From a virus, in IMG/VR virus record IMGVR_UViG_3300007735_000618, positions 1-32,442 of that record: a stretch of DNA of 32,442 bases; one strand, written 5' to 3'. The translations under genes were made by a program, and so were the position numbers. Position 1 is the stretch's first letter, and the number at the start of each line of letters is the position of its first letter. Positions 740 through 32,442 of the stretch are shown here, piece after piece. The notes beneath the pieces are model-generated. The model saw only the letters and a program-made list of their open reading frames with translations, was not told the DNA's origin and did not search any database.

Positions 740-2535
740 AACCCGTGGGCACGCTGACATGGGCCGAGCGCAACGTCCTACTGGACGGCCGACCGTTCCG
801 CCGCGTGGAGTGGCCGCAGATTGTGGACTTCGTGGAGGCTCTCGATTCCGGCGAAGGCAAGACGATCATCGCCATGATGCCTCCGCAGCGGGGCAAGACG
901 TTGGCCGCGCAACTCCACCTTGCACGCAACGTGGCCGTCTCGCCGCGCCGGGCGCTGTGGTACAGCCGGACGTCGGTGGACGCGCGGAGCCTGTCGGATG
1001 CCAAACTCCGCCCGCTCCTTGGGGCGTGCGATGGCGTGCGGCGCGTCACGTACACGGACCCGGACGCGCGCGGAAGGGGGATGCTCTTCCGCTTCCACAA
1101 CGGCCCCGTCGAGTTGCTGAGCGCCGAGGTAGAAGCGCACCGCAACGGCCGGAGCGGGCAAACCCTCTACCTCGACGAGGCATGGCAATACCCCGAGCGG
1201 GCCATCGCCGAGATCTTCAAGCGTGCGGACTCGTACCGCTGGCAGCGCCAGCACGTCATCACGACGACGGCCCCGGACGAGGGCCACGAGCTGGACGTGC
1301 TATGGCGCTCCGGCACTCGGCATGAGTGGCACGTCGCGTGTCCCCATTGCGGCCATGCCTTCGTCCCGCAGTGGGGCGCCGAGATGTTTCCGGTCGAGCA
1401 GGTGGCCAACGAGGGCGGGTTGCTGAACGTGGGCCGCACCGCCGAAAGCGTGCGCATGGTCCCGCCGTGTTGCCGCGTGCCGACGCAATGGAGCCTTGCC
1501 ATCCAACGCGCGATGAACGACCGGGCGCGCGGCGCAGGCTACCGGCGCGACAACGAGGATGGGCGCCCGGACGTCATCGGCTACCGGTTCAACGCGTTGG
1601 CGGTTGACTCGTGGGAAAGCGTCGCCGCCGAGTGGGCAACGGCCATGAATGCCATGCGCTCGGGCGACCCGTCACTCATGCGCGAGTTCCGGATCAAACG
1701 CCTGTGCATCCCCTGGAGCGCGGAGGCTGGCGCAGTCGCATCCGACGCGAAGCTGGAGGTCGGCCCCTACCGCCTTGGCGAGCAGTGGGACGACGAGGCC
1801 AAGGACGCCGAGGGCAGGCCGTACCGGTTCCTCACGGTGGACGTGCAGCGGAATCACTTTTGGGCCGTTGTCCGCTCGTGGGCGCGCGATGGAAGGTCGC
1901 GCCTCGTGGCCCGTTCCAAGCTCCTCACGTCGCATGAAATCGCAGCGTTCGCCGAGGCCAACGGCGTGCCGTTCGGTCGTTGGTTTGAGCATCGGATGCC
2001 CAACGGGCAGGACGTCGTGACGTGCGAATCGCGGGTGTTCCTAGACTCGGGCAACACGTTCGAGGGCCTGGTGACGCGCATCTGTGCGGACCACGGCTTC
2101 CACTGCATGAGGGGATTCAAGCGCCGGGCATTCAAGCACGCCGACGGGCTCCATCGCATCTACGACGAGGGCAAGCTGCTGGATCCCATGATGGGCTTGC
2201 AGCGGTCCGGCTTTGGCAAGCGCATCTGGGAATGGTTCTTCGTTGGAGACGCCGCGAAGGACCGGATGGAACTCCTCCGCCAGCAGACCGGCCCGGATGG
2301 CGTGCCGTTGTGGACGGCATCGGAGGATCACGGGAGCGAGTACGCCAAGCAGATGGCGGCCGAAGTGAAGGCCAAGAAGTTCGGGGCCGACGGCATGACC
2401 TACTCGTGGCAGTGGGTTCGGGCGAAGCGGGACAACCATTTTTTCGACTGCGAAGTGATGCAGATAGTCGCCGCGTCGATGGCCCGGCTCATCGGGGACG
2501 ACACGTTGACGGACGTGGAACCGCCAAAAGAATAG
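736..2535 (+). CDS. Terminase large subunit, GpA family
   Basis: This is the ATP-driven packaging motor and DNA-cutting nuclease. The 599 residues show a Walker A-like PPQRGKT at 49-55 and a Walker B LYLDEAW at 144-150 with D147 and E148. Cysteine pairs (CPHC at 202-205, CC at 245-246) look like the zinc-binding insert seen in lambda gpA relatives. Acidic nuclease candidates are D369 in TVDV, D437 in FLDSGN, and DCE near residue 575. Length and motif order fit the GpA family. The ATG overlaps the stop of the small subunit gene. The family usually makes cohesive ends, which is inference here. Confidence 0.93.
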   Translation: MKPVGTLTWAERNVLLDGRPFRRVEWPQIVDFVEALDSGEGKTIIAMMPPQRGKTLAAQLHLARNVAVSPRRALWYSRTSVDARSLSDAKLRPLLGACDGVRRVTYTDPDARGRGMLFRFHNGPVELLSAEVEAHRNGRSGQTLYLDEAWQYPERAIAEIFKRADSYRWQRQHVITTTAPDEGHELDVLWRSGTRHEWHVACPHCGHAFVPQWGAEMFPVEQVANEGGLLNVGRTAESVRMVPPCCRVPTQWSLAIQRAMNDRARGAGYRRDNEDGRPDVIGYRFNALAVDSWESVAAEWATAMNAMRSGDPSLMREFRIKRLCIPWSAEAGAVASDAKLEVGPYRLGEQWDDEAKDAEGRPYRFLTVDVQRNHFWAVVRSWARDGRSRLVARSKLLTSHEIAAFAEANGVPFGRWFEHRMPNGQDVVTCESRVFLDSGNTFEGLVTRICADHGFHCMRGFKRRAFKHADGLHRIYDEGKLLDPMMGLQRSGFGKRIWEWFFVGDAAKDRMELLRQQTGPDGVPLWTASEDHGSEYAKQMAAEVKAKKFGADGMTYSWQWVRAKRDNHFFDCEVMQIVAASMARLIGDDTLTDVEPPKE

Positions 2536-2573
2536 CGTTGACATTCCGCGCGCGTTCCATAGCGAAGCGCGCC

Positions 2574-2852
2574 GTGGCATGGGCTACGGTCAAGTTCGGT
2601 GACTACTTCGGCTTCTCCCTCGCGGAGATGCAGGCCGAGCTTGCCCGCTACAAGGCCGCGATGCAGGCGATAACGCCGGGACCAGGCAACATCGTCTCCG
2701 CCTCCGCCAACGGCTCCTCGTTTACCTACGGCCCCAACGGGTCGTGGACGCTGAGCCAATGGCGCGCCGAGATCCAGTCAGCCCTCTCTCAGGTTGACGA
2801 CAACGTCACGGATGAACCCAACGCGGCGGTGGCCGTGTTCGTTGGAGGATGA
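2574..2852 (+). CDS. gpW-like head-tail joining protein (putative)
   Basis: This small protein (92 residues from GTG at 2574; TTG at 2538 would add 12 residues) lies between terminase and portal, the place of lambda gpW. Its N-terminal half contains SLAEMQAELARYKAAMQA, like the short helical head-joining proteins that begin with a 'tell the enzyme to sit on the portal' helix pair. A middle beta-like segment (SFTYGPNGSWTLSQW) and a C-terminal helix follow. It ends four bases inside the portal gene. Function is assigned from position, size and general resemblance, so a different connector or a non-structural role remains possible. Confidence 0.55.
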   Translation: MAWATVKFGDYFGFSLAEMQAELARYKAAMQAITPGPGNIVSASANGSSFTYGPNGSWTLSQWRAEIQSALSQVDDNVTDEPNAAVAVFVGG

Positions 2853-4402
2853 AACGCCGCGCCTCCATGACGTTCGGGAAGCTCGGCCCGGCCAAGCCAA
2901 GGCCGCAGGTGCAAGCCGCCGTTGCACCCATCGGGACTGGATTCACGGGCTCGCAGTTCCTCTACCCGACGGTTCCCGACTCGCCGCAGCGCGGAGGCAG
3001 GCCCACGGGCCTCGACGCCCCGACGTGGTCGCAAATCCCGCAGACGCGCCAGCGCGCCATGCTCCAGGACGCGCGTGCCCTGTACGGTGGCGCTGGCCTC
3101 GTGAAGGGCGCGTGCGGGAAGCTGGCGGACTACGTGGTTGGGTGGGCCTTCCACCCTAGATACACGGGCACCGATGACCGCTTCCGGGCCATCGCGGAGA
3201 CCGTCATCAACGGATGGCTCGACGCCTGCGACGTGCGCGGCGGGCAATACGATTGGCGCGTTGGCCTGCGCACGGCTTGCATATCCATCGACCGCGACGG
3301 CGATTGTTTCGCGGTGCTGACCAAGGACCGCGTCACGGGCGGGCCGCGCCTCAAGTGGGTTGAAGCCGACCGCATCGGGCAACCGAACCTCAGCGGCGGC
3401 GGCAACCAGTGGACGAAGGTACCGGACATACCGGAGACGCGGGGCTACGCCGGGATGAACTCCTCTTGTGGCGTCGTGTTTGACGACGACATGCGGCCCG
3501 TCGCCTTCAACATCCTGCCCAATGTTGGCGCGGGTTCCATCATGACGTGGAACCTCGTTCCCGCAGAAAGCGTCGTGTGGTTCTTCGACCCAGTGTCGTT
3601 CTCGCAGGCGCGCGGAATCCCGAGCATCTGCCACGGCGTGCTGGACTGGTACGATTTGCAGGAGACCGTCGCCGCCGAGAAAATCGCCGCCAAGGTCAAC
3701 TCCTCGCTGGCTCTCATCGAGAAGAACGAGACGGGCCGCCGCGAGCTTGGCAAGGAGGCCATCGGCGCGGCGAGCCTTCCGACGACGGGCCGCGCCGGGC
3801 TCGAAACGCAAACCTACGAGAAGGGCCTCATCCGGTGGATCAAGACGACGGGCTCGATTGAATCACACAAGAGCGACCGCCCGAGCAACGGGTGGCTCGC
3901 CCTCATGGAGCACCTGACCCGCTCCGCATTCGCGGGCATGGGCTTGCCGATGGAGTTCGTCTGGGACAGCTCGAAGATCGGCGGCGCGGGCGTGCGTAGC
4001 ATGGTGGGCCAGGTGCAACGCGTCGTGGAGACGCGCCAGCGCACGCTCTACCGGCCTGCGATGCAGTGCCTCCTCTACGCCGTCGCCTCATACATGGAGC
4101 GAGGCGACATCCCGCCAGCCGCCGACTGGTGGCAATGGGACTTCTCCCTTCCGCCGCTCTACTCCGTGGACATGGGCCGCGACTCGCAGAACCGGCGCGA
4201 GGACTTCGCGGTGGGCATCCGGTCCCTTCGTTCGATCCTAGCGGAGGATTCCATCGACGTGCGGGACCATCTTCAACAGCGCGCCGACGATTACATCCTC
4301 GCCCGCGACATCGCCGAGCAACGGGGCATCCCGATTGAGGCGATTCTCAACCCCAACAAGGTGACCGCACCACCCGAGATCGTGGCCGCACCCGCCGCAT
4401 GA
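2849..4402 (+). CDS. Portal protein, lambda gpB family
   Basis: The 517-residue product should form the ring at the capsid vertex through which DNA enters and to which the tail joins. The N-terminus is typical of lambda-type portals: a basic start, YPTVPDSPQRGG, then RQRAMLQDARALY, followed by a conserved-looking nucleus of alternating helices and beta segments and an alanine-rich C-terminus. A GGAGG ribosome-binding site lies immediately before the ATG, inside the end of the preceding gene. It sits between the gpW-like gene and the protease, as in lambda. Length is normal for the family. Confidence 0.88.
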   Translation: MKRRASMTFGKLGPAKPRPQVQAAVAPIGTGFTGSQFLYPTVPDSPQRGGRPTGLDAPTWSQIPQTRQRAMLQDARALYGGAGLVKGACGKLADYVVGWAFHPRYTGTDDRFRAIAETVINGWLDACDVRGGQYDWRVGLRTACISIDRDGDCFAVLTKDRVTGGPRLKWVEADRIGQPNLSGGGNQWTKVPDIPETRGYAGMNSSCGVVFDDDMRPVAFNILPNVGAGSIMTWNLVPAESVVWFFDPVSFSQARGIPSICHGVLDWYDLQETVAAEKIAAKVNSSLALIEKNETGRRELGKEAIGAASLPTTGRAGLETQTYEKGLIRWIKTTGSIESHKSDRPSNGWLALMEHLTRSAFAGMGLPMEFVWDSSKIGGAGVRSMVGQVQRVVETRQRTLYRPAMQCLLYAVASYMERGDIPPAADWWQWDFSLPPLYSVDMGRDSQNRREDFAVGIRSLRSILAEDSIDVRDHLQQRADDYILARDIAEQRGIPIEAILNPNKVTAPPEIVAAPAA

Positions 4403-29226: not shown

Positions 29227-29420
29227 CCGAGCCCGTCGAACACATCCTGTGGGGCTTGCAGACCCGCATGGGGGAGATCATTAAGCTCGCCAACATGCCG
29301 GAGGACAAGCGCGGCAGCATCACCCGCGAGGCCCACGGGGCTTTGAAGGACATCCTCGAAGCCCAATCTCAGCTCCGCGAGGCCAAGCGCGCCCTGTTTG
29401 ATCCGGAGGTGTCGCCATGA
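29223..29420 (+). CDS. Small hypothetical protein
   Basis: This is a 65-residue, mostly helical product (EHILWGLQTRMGEIIKLANMPEDKRGSITREAHGALKDILEAQSQLREAKRALF) with no recognisable motif. It overlaps both neighbours by ATGA. The even packing with the other small genes supports translation. Function unknown. Confidence 0.5.
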   Translation: MTEPVEHILWGLQTRMGEIIKLANMPEDKRGSITREAHGALKDILEAQSQLREAKRALFDPEVSP

Positions 29421-29611
29421 CCTGCGCGCACGAACCAGAGGAGACCGTCGGCCACGTCGTGGCCCGGCATTGCCGCCATTGTGGCGTGGAGATCGAGCCC
29501 GCCGCGTGCGCCGAGTGCCACGGCATGGAGTTCGTCACGGACGACCAGGGCCGCGAGATTGACTGCCCGGACTGCAATGGAACCGGGTGCGACGGATGGA
29601 GGAAGGCATGA
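29417..29611 (+). CDS. Zinc-knuckle (DnaJ-type) small protein
   Basis: This is a 64-residue protein with two CxxC units like the DnaJ zinc centre: CRHCGVEIEPAACAECHG and CPDCNGTGCDGW, each close to CxxCxGxG. It probably binds one or two zinc ions. A second, clearly similar protein is encoded immediately downstream. Such small zinc proteins are frequent in phages and usually of unknown role. The ATGA overlap is normal for this region. Confidence 0.7.
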   Translation: MTCAHEPEETVGHVVARHCRHCGVEIEPAACAECHGMEFVTDDQGREIDCPDCNGTGCDGWRKA

Positions 29612-29823
29612 GCAACCATTCCGTTGACGCCAACAAAATGGCCTGCCGACACGAGCCCATGGAGCCCGTCGCCGTGTTCGTTCACGCGTGCAAACACTGC
29701 GGCGTTACAATCGAGGCCGTGGAATGCTCCGGTTGCCGTGGAAGTGGAAGGTGCGATTCAGGCGACCGAAGGTGCCCAGTCTGCCGGGGCACCGGCATCG
29801 ACCGATGGGAGGCGGCGACGTGA
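29608..29823 (+). CDS. Paralogous zinc-knuckle small protein
   Basis: The 71-residue product shares the architecture of its upstream neighbour: CKHCGVTIEAVECSGCRGSG then CPVCRGTGIDRW, with a comparable N-terminus (HEPMEPVAVFVHACKHCG against EPEETVGHVVARHCRHCG). The pair looks like a tandem duplication that has diverged. This copy has an extra SGDRRC segment. It overlaps the previous gene by ATGA and ends on the GTG of the next. Confidence 0.7.
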   Translation: MSNHSVDANKMACRHEPMEPVAVFVHACKHCGVTIEAVECSGCRGSGRCDSGDRRCPVCRGTGIDRWEAAT

Positions 29824-30196: not shown

Positions 30197-30381
30197 GGCG
30201 TTGGTTCGTTGTCGTTCAACTCTACGCGCAGGCCCATTGGCGCGATTACCCGCATGAGTGGAGCGGGACTGCGTTCAAGTTCCGCCGCGATGCGGAGCGG
30301 GTCGCTGACAATCTGCGCAAGTGGTACGCCGACCCGCAGCATTGGCACGTCTCCGTCGTGAGGAGGAGGGTGAAGGAGTGA
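30193..30381 (+). CDS. Small hypothetical protein
   Basis: This is a 62-residue basic protein, RRWFVVVQLYAQAHWRDYPHEWSGTAFKFRRDAERVADNLRKWYAD. The N-terminal strand resembles that of the protein at 29820. The middle contains a possible RNA- or nucleotide-binding helix (RDAERVADNLRKWY). It ends inside the GTG of the methyltransferase gene. Function unknown. Confidence 0.5.
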   Translation: MRRWFVVVQLYAQAHWRDYPHEWSGTAFKFRRDAERVADNLRKWYADPQHWHVSVVRRRVKE

Positions 30382-32045
30382 AGCCATACACCCTCCACCA
30401 CGGCGACTGCCTAGCCGTCCTCCGCACGCTCCCGGACAACAGCGTGGACGCCATCGTGACGGACCCGCCCTATGGCCTGTCATTCATGGGCAAGCGTTGG
30501 GATTACGACGTCCCGGCCGTCGAGGTCTGGACCGAGTGCCTGCGCGTGCTTAAGCCCGGCGGGCATCTGCTGGCGTTCGCCGGGACGCGCACGCAACACC
30601 GCATGGATGTGCGGATCGAGGATGCAGGCTTTGACATCCGGGACCTCATCGCCTGGGTCTATGGAAGCGGGTTTAGCAAATCCTTCAACATGCACCGCGT
30701 TGACGCTTGCGAGTGTGAAGGGAATGCGATACCGTCGGCCCATGGAAAAACGGAATCCGAACACGACATGCGACGCCTGCGGAACACCCATCTATCGCAG
30801 GCCATCGACGCTCAACAGGAACGCGAGCAAGGCTTGTTCGCATCGGTGCAGCAACAGCCTGCGAGAACATGCTCAACTCTACACGCCGGAGGCGATAGCC
30901 AAGCGGGCGGAGAAGATGCACGGCGAGAACAACCCAGCGTGGAACGGGGGCAGGTACATCGAACCGGGCAAGGGCTATGTCATGGTGAGGATGGAATCGC
31001 ACCCGAGGGCGAGGGCCAACGGCTACGTTCTGGAGCACATTCTGGTAGCGGAGAAGATGTTGGGAAGGCCGCTTCACGCCGGGGAGGAGGTACACCACAA
31101 GAACCGCAACAGGGCGGACAACAGGCCGGAGAATCTGGAGGTGTTCGCGAGCCACAAGGACCATTGGATGCGGGAGCATTACGAGGACGTGGCGCGTGCC
31201 CGCGATGCGGCAAACTTCGCAAAGAGTTCGCTGGCTTCGGCACGGGATTGAAGCCCGCCCTGGAGCCCATCACGGTCGCCCGCAAGCCGCTCGACGGGAC
31301 CGTCGCCGAGAACGTCCTCGCGCACGGGACAGGGGCGTTGAATGTCGATGGGTGTCGGGTGGGGACGGAGACGGTGATGACGATTCCACGCAACGACGGA
31401 CAACACGGTCAAAGCAACGCTTTGGGTCTTGGTTGGCACGGTCAGGTTGACGCGTCTGAACGCTCCGGCCGCTGGCCCGCCAACCTCATCCACGACGGGA
31501 GCGAGGAGGTCGTGGGGTTGTTTCCTGATAGCAAAAGTGGTGTTGCGGTAAGAAGGAACATTGGAGTTTCTGCAAAAGGAATGTATTCCCCAGGAGGAAA
31601 AGAATCAGATCCCAAGGAGGATGTTGGTTATGGCGACTCCGGCTCCGCCGCCCGGTTCTTCTACCAAGCCAAGGCCGCGAAGGCCGACAGGGATGCGGGG
31701 TGTGAGGGGTTGGAGAAGCGCATGATGGATACAGACGGGGACGGTAGAAATCAGGCTGGATTCAACTCTGAGGATCGCCCGCCAATGCTTCCACGATCAA
31801 ACCATCACCCCACCGTAAAGCCCACCGACCTCATGCGCTACCTCTGCCGCCTCGTGACGCCGCCCGGTGGCGTCGTCCTTGACCCATTCACCGGCTCCGG
31901 CTCGACGGGCCGAGGGGCCATCCTCGAAGGATTCCGGTTCATCGGGATCGAGCGTGAAGCCGACTATCTCGCCATCGCGCGCGCGCGGATCGACGACGCG
32001 GTTGCGATGCGGGCACGCGAGACGGCGCAGTTGACACTGATATGA
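30378..32045 (+). CDS. Beta-class DNA methyltransferase carrying a large in-frame insertion
   Basis: The 555-residue frame has DPPYG at 29-33 near the N-terminus and DPFTGSGSTG near 502-511 at the C-terminus. That is the permuted order of beta-class N4/N6 methyltransferases. Flanking segments are normal (LKPGGHLLAFAGTRTQ, then FAGFGTGLKPALEP, ARKPLDGTVAENVLAHGTGALN, HHPTVKPTDLMRYL). Between about residues 115 and 272 the frame reads through low-information Arg/Gln/Gly-rich sequence that matches no methyltransferase. The DNA there encodes an HNH protein in another frame. A CECEG...CPRCGK pair brackets the insertion. Enzyme activity of the read-through form is doubtful. Target unknown; it probably protects phage DNA from host restriction. 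Confidence 0.85.
   Translation: MKPYTLHHGDCLAVLRTLPDNSVDAIVTDPPYGLSFMGKRWDYDVPAVEVWTECLRVLKPGGHLLAFAGTRTQHRMDVRIEDAGFDIRDLIAWVYGSGFSKSFNMHRVDACECEGNAIPSAHGKTESEHDMRRLRNTHLSQAIDAQQEREQGLFASVQQQPARTCSTLHAGGDSQAGGEDARREQPSVERGQVHRTGQGLCHGEDGIAPEGEGQRLRSGAHSGSGEDVGKAASRRGGGTPQEPQQGGQQAGESGGVREPQGPLDAGALRGRGACPRCGKLRKEFAGFGTGLKPALEPITVARKPLDGTVAENVLAHGTGALNVDGCRVGTETVMTIPRNDGQHGQSNALGLGWHGQVDASERSGRWPANLIHDGSEEVVGLFPDSKSGVAVRRNIGVSAKGMYSPGGKESDPKEDVGYGDSGSAARFFYQAKAAKADRDAGCEGLEKRMMDTDGDGRNQAGFNSEDRPPMLPRSNHHPTVKPTDLMRYLCRLVTPPGGVVLDPFTGSGSTGRGAILEGFRFIGIEREADYLAIARARIDDAVAMRARETAQLTLI
30724..31251 (+). CDS. HNH endonuclease nested inside the methyltransferase gene
   Basis: The 175-residue product (169 residues from ATG at 30742) is encoded one base out of frame with the methyltransferase. 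It has an N-terminal zinc finger of four cysteines (C16, C19, C38, C42 counting from 30724). Then come a middle NNPAWNGGRY motif and the nuclease core GYVLEHILVAEKMLGRPL followed by EEVHHKNRNRADNRPENLEVF, where H124-H125, N133 and the PENL stretch are the HNH signature. GAAGGG precedes the 30724 ATG by one base, a poorly spaced Shine-Dalgarno. The last 19 codons use methyltransferase exon sequence. Known relatives are homing enzymes or packaging helpers. Confidence 0.88.
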   Translation: MRYRRPMEKRNPNTTCDACGTPIYRRPSTLNRNASKACSHRCSNSLREHAQLYTPEAIAKRAEKMHGENNPAWNGGRYIEPGKGYVMVRMESHPRARANGYVLEHILVAEKMLGRPLHAGEEVHHKNRNRADNRPENLEVFASHKDHWMREHYEDVARARDAANFAKSSLASARD

Positions 32046-32268: not shown

Positions 32269-32442
32269 AGGTTTCCGCCTCCCATCCAATTTTGACACAA
32301 ACTTGAAAAACCGAGCAAAAGCCGACGGCAATCCTAAATCCAAGCGCTGGCCTCGCCCGTTTAGCTCAATGGCCCAGGCGAGCGCTGAGATGGGCATTCC
32401 TAAATCCACGCTGCGGCGCGCGAAGTCTTTGGGTGCTCCTTG
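32269..32442. repeat. Right copy of terminal direct repeat
   Basis: This is the same 174 bases as 1-174, with C at 32374 and T at 32441. The start of the small terminase gene is repeated here and cut off at the window end, so this copy is not a separate gene. Together the copies indicate a closed circular assembly. Confidence 0.9.

Follow-up and report, generated by a model that had tools for sequence, protein, structure and literature searches.

How can a phage enzyme gene house a complete second gene and still be readable as a single protein from its start to its stop? This question is raised by a virus record of 32,442 nucleotides (nt; IMG/VR record IMGVR_UViG_3300007735_000618, the whole of which is referred to here as the window), in which a DNA methyltransferase (MTase) gene contains, out of frame and entirely within its borders, an intact open reading frame (ORF) for an HNH homing endonuclease. 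We estimate a probability of about 0.85 that this insert is a frame-transparent homing element, i.e. an HNH gene lodged in a loop of the MTase with the host frame kept readable. An earlier sequence-only reading had proposed that the HNH gene is nested in the MTase gene with both frames open, and this anatomy was confirmed, the MTase frame being open from 30378 to 32045 and the HNH ORF running in its +1 frame. The parts of the locus are as follows.

30378 to 32045, forward strand: beta-class N6/N4 DNA MTase gene with the insert included (GTG start, 555 codons, stop-free frame).
30378 to 30698, forward strand: N part of the MTase, with motif IV DPPYG at 30462 to 30476 and ending in GSGFSKSFNMHR.
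About 30699 to 31223, forward strand: insertion as judged against homologs that lack it (525 nt or 175 codons; the border may be off by a few codons).
30702 to 30722, forward strand, MTase frame: first half of a putative Cys4 clasp (DACECEG).
30724 to 31251, forward strand, +1 frame of the MTase: HNH homing endonuclease ORF (ATG at 30724, or alternative ATG at 30742; HNH_3 and PHROG matches).
31194 to 31214, forward strand, MTase frame: second half of the putative Cys4 clasp (ACPRCGK), overlapping the 3' end of the HNH ORF.
31224 to 32045, forward strand: C part of the MTase, with GFGTGLKP..., HPTVKP and motif I DPFTGSGSTG at 31881 to 31910.

GGAGGAGGG precedes the GTG at 30378, the catalytic motifs are intact, and Pfam N6_N4_Mtase matches the MTase as two stretches with the insert in between; the halves with DPPYG and DPFTGSGSTG also match PHROG DNA methyltransferases. 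In an AlphaFold2 (AF2) model, the MTase core has pLDDT values mostly above 90, and the best PDB match of this predicted core is CcrM (6pbd, E 3.7e-10). The nested ORF encodes a CxxC...C..C zinc finger at its N-terminus (one finger, by sequence), an NPAW motif and an HNH_3 domain with conserved HNH columns (PF13392, E 4e-11, 42.8 bits at a cut-off of 24.8), and it matches a PHROG HNH family at E 1e-29. A PDB profile search with the HNH gave no match, and a Foldseek search with its AF2 model returned I-HmuI (1u3e) as the sole match, at a non-significant E of 0.29. GC content by codon position in the insert is 0.57/0.47/0.77 in the HNH frame and 0.78/0.57/0.47 in the MTase frame, a pattern that identifies the HNH frame as the main coding frame of the insert. 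As the sequence-only reading had noted, the last HNH codons use MTase bases: the 3' end of the ORF shares bases with the conserved MTase codons for GFGTG, up to 31251.

The insertion is real and its length is a multiple of three, with no stop in the MTase frame, but the 474 nt initially assigned to it (30720–31193) were slightly too narrow. Alignment with insert-free homologs gives the 525 nt listed above, and the 474 nt correspond to the part between two Cys pairs. Insert-free homologs such as that at locus L066 (loci of relatives carry L numbers) pass directly from GSGFPKSHNLKG to EWQGWGTALKP across the insertion site, which in many MTases is a loop of variable length, from 9 to about 75 residues. 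The shortest insert-free linker, of 9 residues, reads GSGFPKSHNLKGEWQGWGTALKP (L066, L216 and others).

Taken from the window alone, the open MTase frame is weak evidence because both of two forward frames are open in 8.5% of 474-nt segments of this GC-rich genome, and relatives were therefore used. Given the window HNH codons, the probability of a stop-free MTase frame by chance is 0.0005 (5.5 stops expected). Viral contigs, bacterial genomes and phage records yielded 139 HNH relatives. In 85 of these, the HNH is flanked by MTase sequence at either end, a count that includes near-duplicates and was not selected for an open host frame, and in 84 of the 85 the MTase halves are in the same phase without an intervening stop. 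The stop test was based on 65 representatives, chosen for their open host frame and sharing <85% nucleotide identity, and these distinct nested copies contain 0 host-frame stops versus 370 expected from synonymous codon shuffling within each gene and 573 expected from host codon usage. The third, non-host forward frame of the nested copies has 498 stops versus 466 expected, and the corresponding frame of free-standing HNH relatives has 300 versus 348 expected. None of the AT-rich nested copies (GC 0.39–0.47) has a host-frame stop, where 6–11 are expected in each. These counts among the relatives, the AT-rich members included, indicate that the MTase frame across the nested HNH is kept open by selection.

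What is preserved is openness rather than residue sequence. The sequence-only reading had held that homologs matching the gene in length and in MTase-frame residues would replace the idea of an in-frame insertion. Homologs do share the insert, but their MTase-frame residues within it are only weakly conserved, at 25.7% identity versus 23.7% under a null of stop avoidance alone; the flanking Cys pairs are the exception. This amino acid constraint is too slight for us to ascribe a function to the MTase-frame sequence of the loop.

The frame and orientation of the HNH vary among the relatives. In most, it lies in the +1 frame of the MTase, as in the window. In mycobacteriophages Pollywog (L108) and Mantra (L109) and in cyanophage Cr-LKS3, it lies in the third frame and at another MTase site. 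Pollywog and Mantra belong to the published group of phages with the ShiLan domain, an HNH that actinobacteriophage DNA methylases hold out of frame (Arsenault, Gosselin and Gogarten, Genes, February 2025, PMC11855218; also Gosselin 2023, PMC9957025), and were thus recovered among our relatives. At the same MTase site as in the window, an HNH of the window's family is antisense in seven loci (L126, L127, L129, L130, L132, L136 and L194), and the sole antisense frame without stops is the MTase frame. This openness is informative mainly in the AT-richer L126 (GC 0.35), L130, L132, L136 and L194, L127 and L129 being GC-rich. A ribozyme or bypass signal would not survive inversion, whereas the need for a readable host protein accounts for all orientations. 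Examination of the cultured phages Belphegor, Kpn BU9 and Mel-JY01 for an element of the window type revealed no nested HNH.

Several further nested ORFs were observed. L126 has, within the same MTase as the antisense copy at 2501–3100, a further antisense HNH-like ORF at 1823–2290. The Mantra MTase (1922–4246) carries an in-frame LAGLIDADG endonuclease besides the ShiLan HNH (PMC9957025). An unrelated zinc-ribbon/HNH-like ORF lies in the third frame of the same MTase in L082 (about 3816–4262 of the locus), where the MTase frame is open, and a different HNH-like ORF lies in the third frame of the MTase of Escherichia phage BUCT618 (L113, 1977–3839), which is annotated as one MTase and has short repeats of MTase sequence at the insert edges. 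In Gordonia phage GAL1 (L093/L111), the host of a +1-frame HNH is a DUF3310 gene, and in L098 it is an unknown gene; in both cases, host start-side sequence recurs after the insert.

In the MTase frame, two Cys pairs flank the HNH, a CxC before it and a CxxCGK after it. Among 37 copies, 32 have both pairs, four have neither and one is one-sided (Fisher 8e-5, uncorrected for relatedness); on trees, this corresponds to 4–5 losses, none of them discordant. The pairs are also found in 7/7 antisense copies. The CxC...CxxCGK arrangement is absent from 186 shorter insert-free linkers, among which an insert-free MTase with the Cys pairs, as a direct empty site, was sought and not found; three shorter insert-free linkers have a contiguous zinc ribbon in the reverse order (CxxCGK...CxC). 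In the AF2 model of the 555-residue MTase, insert residues 116–267 are disordered, with a pLDDT of about 34, compared with 89 for the same DNA read as HNH. We suggest that the flanking Cys pairs probably form a zinc clasp that would tie off this loop of the MTase. Such a clasp would also speak for uninterrupted translation of the MTase, since some 160 codons, with the HNH among them, separate its two halves.

The histories of HNH and host are discordant. Across 1415 pairs, HNH identity and host C-part identity are nearly uncorrelated (r 0.13), as expected of a mobile gene; for example, the window and L114 share 71% identity in the HNH and 47% in the MTase C part. In the close relatives L114 and L116, AAGGAGG lies 5–8 nt upstream of the HNH ATG, and in L030 and L042 GGAGA lies upstream of it, consistent with independent initiation of the HNH at an internal start codon. 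By analogy with its family, the HNH would cleave the empty site.

Our working model is as follows. A small HNH gene would occupy a variable loop of a phage MTase gene in the +1 frame, and its translation would probably begin at an internal start codon of its own. The stop-free MTase frame would allow a presumably active MTase to be made as a single chain, within which the element forms a long disordered loop; the putative Cys4 zinc clasp, likewise encoded in the MTase frame, probably closes the base of this loop. The endonuclease would cut insert-free MTase genes, and repair would copy the element into them.

The sequence-only reading had left three options, and the in-frame element that is read through is now strongly supported, by the 84 of 85 open loci and by the antisense copies, while a compact intron and ribosome bypass are disfavored. 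A very compact self-splicing intron that excises the HNH segment from the mRNA would fit the precise insertion site and the established association of many HNH homing genes with introns. The covariance search that had been proposed as a check was run, however, and yielded no relevant Rfam intron match in the window up to E 10 or in related loci at E 0.5; there is also no room for an intron core, and RNAweasel/MFannot searches of the ShiLan relative likewise gave no intron (PMC11855218). Moreover, 84 of 85 loci have a stop-free host frame and an insert length that is a multiple of three, two properties for which an intron has no need, and antisense copies at the same site cannot hold the same ribozyme; we therefore regard an intron as very unlikely. 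Bypass of the insert by the ribosome, or a frameshift into the HNH frame, is in our view just as improbable: bypass elements exist elsewhere (T4 gene 60 and the yeast mitochondrial byps), but bypass needs no open host frame, and here host-frame stops are wholly excluded, the insert spans about 175 codons and antisense copies exist. A slim chance is left to an MTase that is split or dead, broken by the HNH, with a frame that is open owing to high GC. The GC content of 0.61–0.65, the 8.5% of double-open segments in the genome and a three-ORF split of the MTase in L157 would agree with this, but AT-rich relatives are stop-free as well, free-standing relatives are full of stops, and the intact MTase motifs speak against a dead gene. 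Finally, it is exceedingly improbable that the insert is a diverged intein removed from the protein, even though the same HNH family occurs out of frame within true inteins of the same MTase a few residues upstream, between YG and SGFPK. The window insert follows GSGFSKS, lacks Cys1, blocks A/B/F/G and the terminal Asn of inteins, and lies between Cys pairs of the kind seen in zinc ribbons.

For the frame-transparent element itself, several observations have to be set against it. The Cys-pair covariation lacks formal significance once relatedness is corrected for, and a test on independent pairs had too few pairs. The ribosome-binding-like site at the window HNH start is weak, and an exact insert-free sibling of the window phage was not found. 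At the same site, the MTase of L157 (2078–3587) is in three separate ORFs, for the N part, the HNH and the C part, and in L158, an antisense case, the MTase frame is broken, suggesting that transparency is one of several possible outcomes.

The HNHs inside inteins extend the range of this family. In about 20 relatives, the HNH lies out of frame within a genuine intein of the same MTase, inserted between YG and SGFPK. These inteins start with CLSEDTEIL..., have block B SRNHRCLV and end in VPTGAFVARRNGKVFVTGN before S; their N-part profile matches the AceL NrdHF intein (E 7e-8), and splicing blocks A, B, F and G with the terminal Asn are present in L168, L175 and others but absent in the window. 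MTase inteins of the form YG, C...TGN, SGFPKS with the HNH in the +1 frame of a stop-free intein frame were observed in L168, L170, L172, L174–L178, L180, L185, L188, L190, L191, L199–L201, L208, L209, L211, L151 and L156. HNHs of the window family are antisense within inteins of terminase genes (L085, L182 and L214) and of a DNA polymerase clamp-loader gene (L181), which match Pfam Intein_splicing at E 1e-7 to 0.008; with such short matched HNH stretches, the stop statistics of each of these copies are weak.

The sequence-only reading had regarded the arrangement as not a described class, which is out of date because out-of-frame HNH insertions in phage methylases were reported in February 2025 (PMC11855218). 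Neither intron nor intein was detectable for the ShiLan domain, a second example is Pacc40 gp60, and one such element has been annotated in phage Applejack in a 2025 announcement (PMC12613952). The ShiLan element and that of the window have in common an out-of-frame HNH wholly inside a methylase, a stop-free methylase frame, a multiple-of-three length, no detectable intron or intein, and mobility (for ShiLan, a disjunct distribution). They differ in the site (after EPVxVARKP in ShiLan, after GSGFSKS in the window), the frame (third versus +1) and the number of zinc fingers (two versus one); the HNHs have diverged to about 40% identity, and the window adds the host-frame Cys clasp. Therefore, the window element is of the same kind as ShiLan and a different variant, not the ShiLan domain proper. 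As read, PMC11855218 contains neither a selection test nor antisense or intein-embedded copies. To our knowledge, the antisense copies and the HNHs that true inteins hold, whether out of frame or antisense, are new; for the latter, no paper was found in a search that excludes a preprint on non-canonical actinobacteriophage inteins and Gorbalenya 1998. To the published class, this analysis adds a broader range of loci, a test for selection, antisense and intein-embedded forms, and the putative clasp.

An intein with a homing endonuclease domain resembles the window element in being translated with its host, in its multiple-of-three length and in its conserved site; it differs in that the window insert has no splicing blocks and its endonuclease is in another frame. 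mobE in Aeh1 nrdA, a genes-in-pieces arrangement, is likewise a homing endonuclease gene inserted into a phage enzyme gene with neither intron nor intein, but its host is cut into two proteins, an outcome that L157 resembles, whereas the window host frame is continuous. Group I introns with an HNH of the I-HmuI type have a similar HNH family and fold, and the window is without intron RNA.

We tentatively propose, at slightly less than even odds, that frame transparency is a third general mode for homing genes inside coding genes, besides introns and inteins: one HNH family would occupy +1, third and antisense frames, in MTases directly and in inteins of MTase, terminase and clamp-loader genes, with the host frame open, and at the MTase site the element would also encode a host-frame zinc clasp that closes its own loop. 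The arrangement is widespread and strongly selected in both frames. The host frame over the nested homing gene is strongly selected to stay readable, and the statistics for this are absent from the published description. A mobile gene could thus persist through tolerance by the host protein rather than through splicing, and the locus offers a clean natural system for overlapping genes. The model predicts a disordered 175-residue loop in the host protein, a zinc clasp and an endonuclease made from an internal start. Many annotated 'DNA methylases' would conceal an unannotated nuclease.

The window has a direct repeat of 172 nt at its termini (1–172 and 32269–32440, 99% identity), which makes it probable that the record is a complete phage genome. 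Two small neighboring ORFs a short way upstream of the MTase region (29417–29611 and 29587–29823) have similar CxxC...CxxCxGxG zinc motifs and are probably a duplicated pair.
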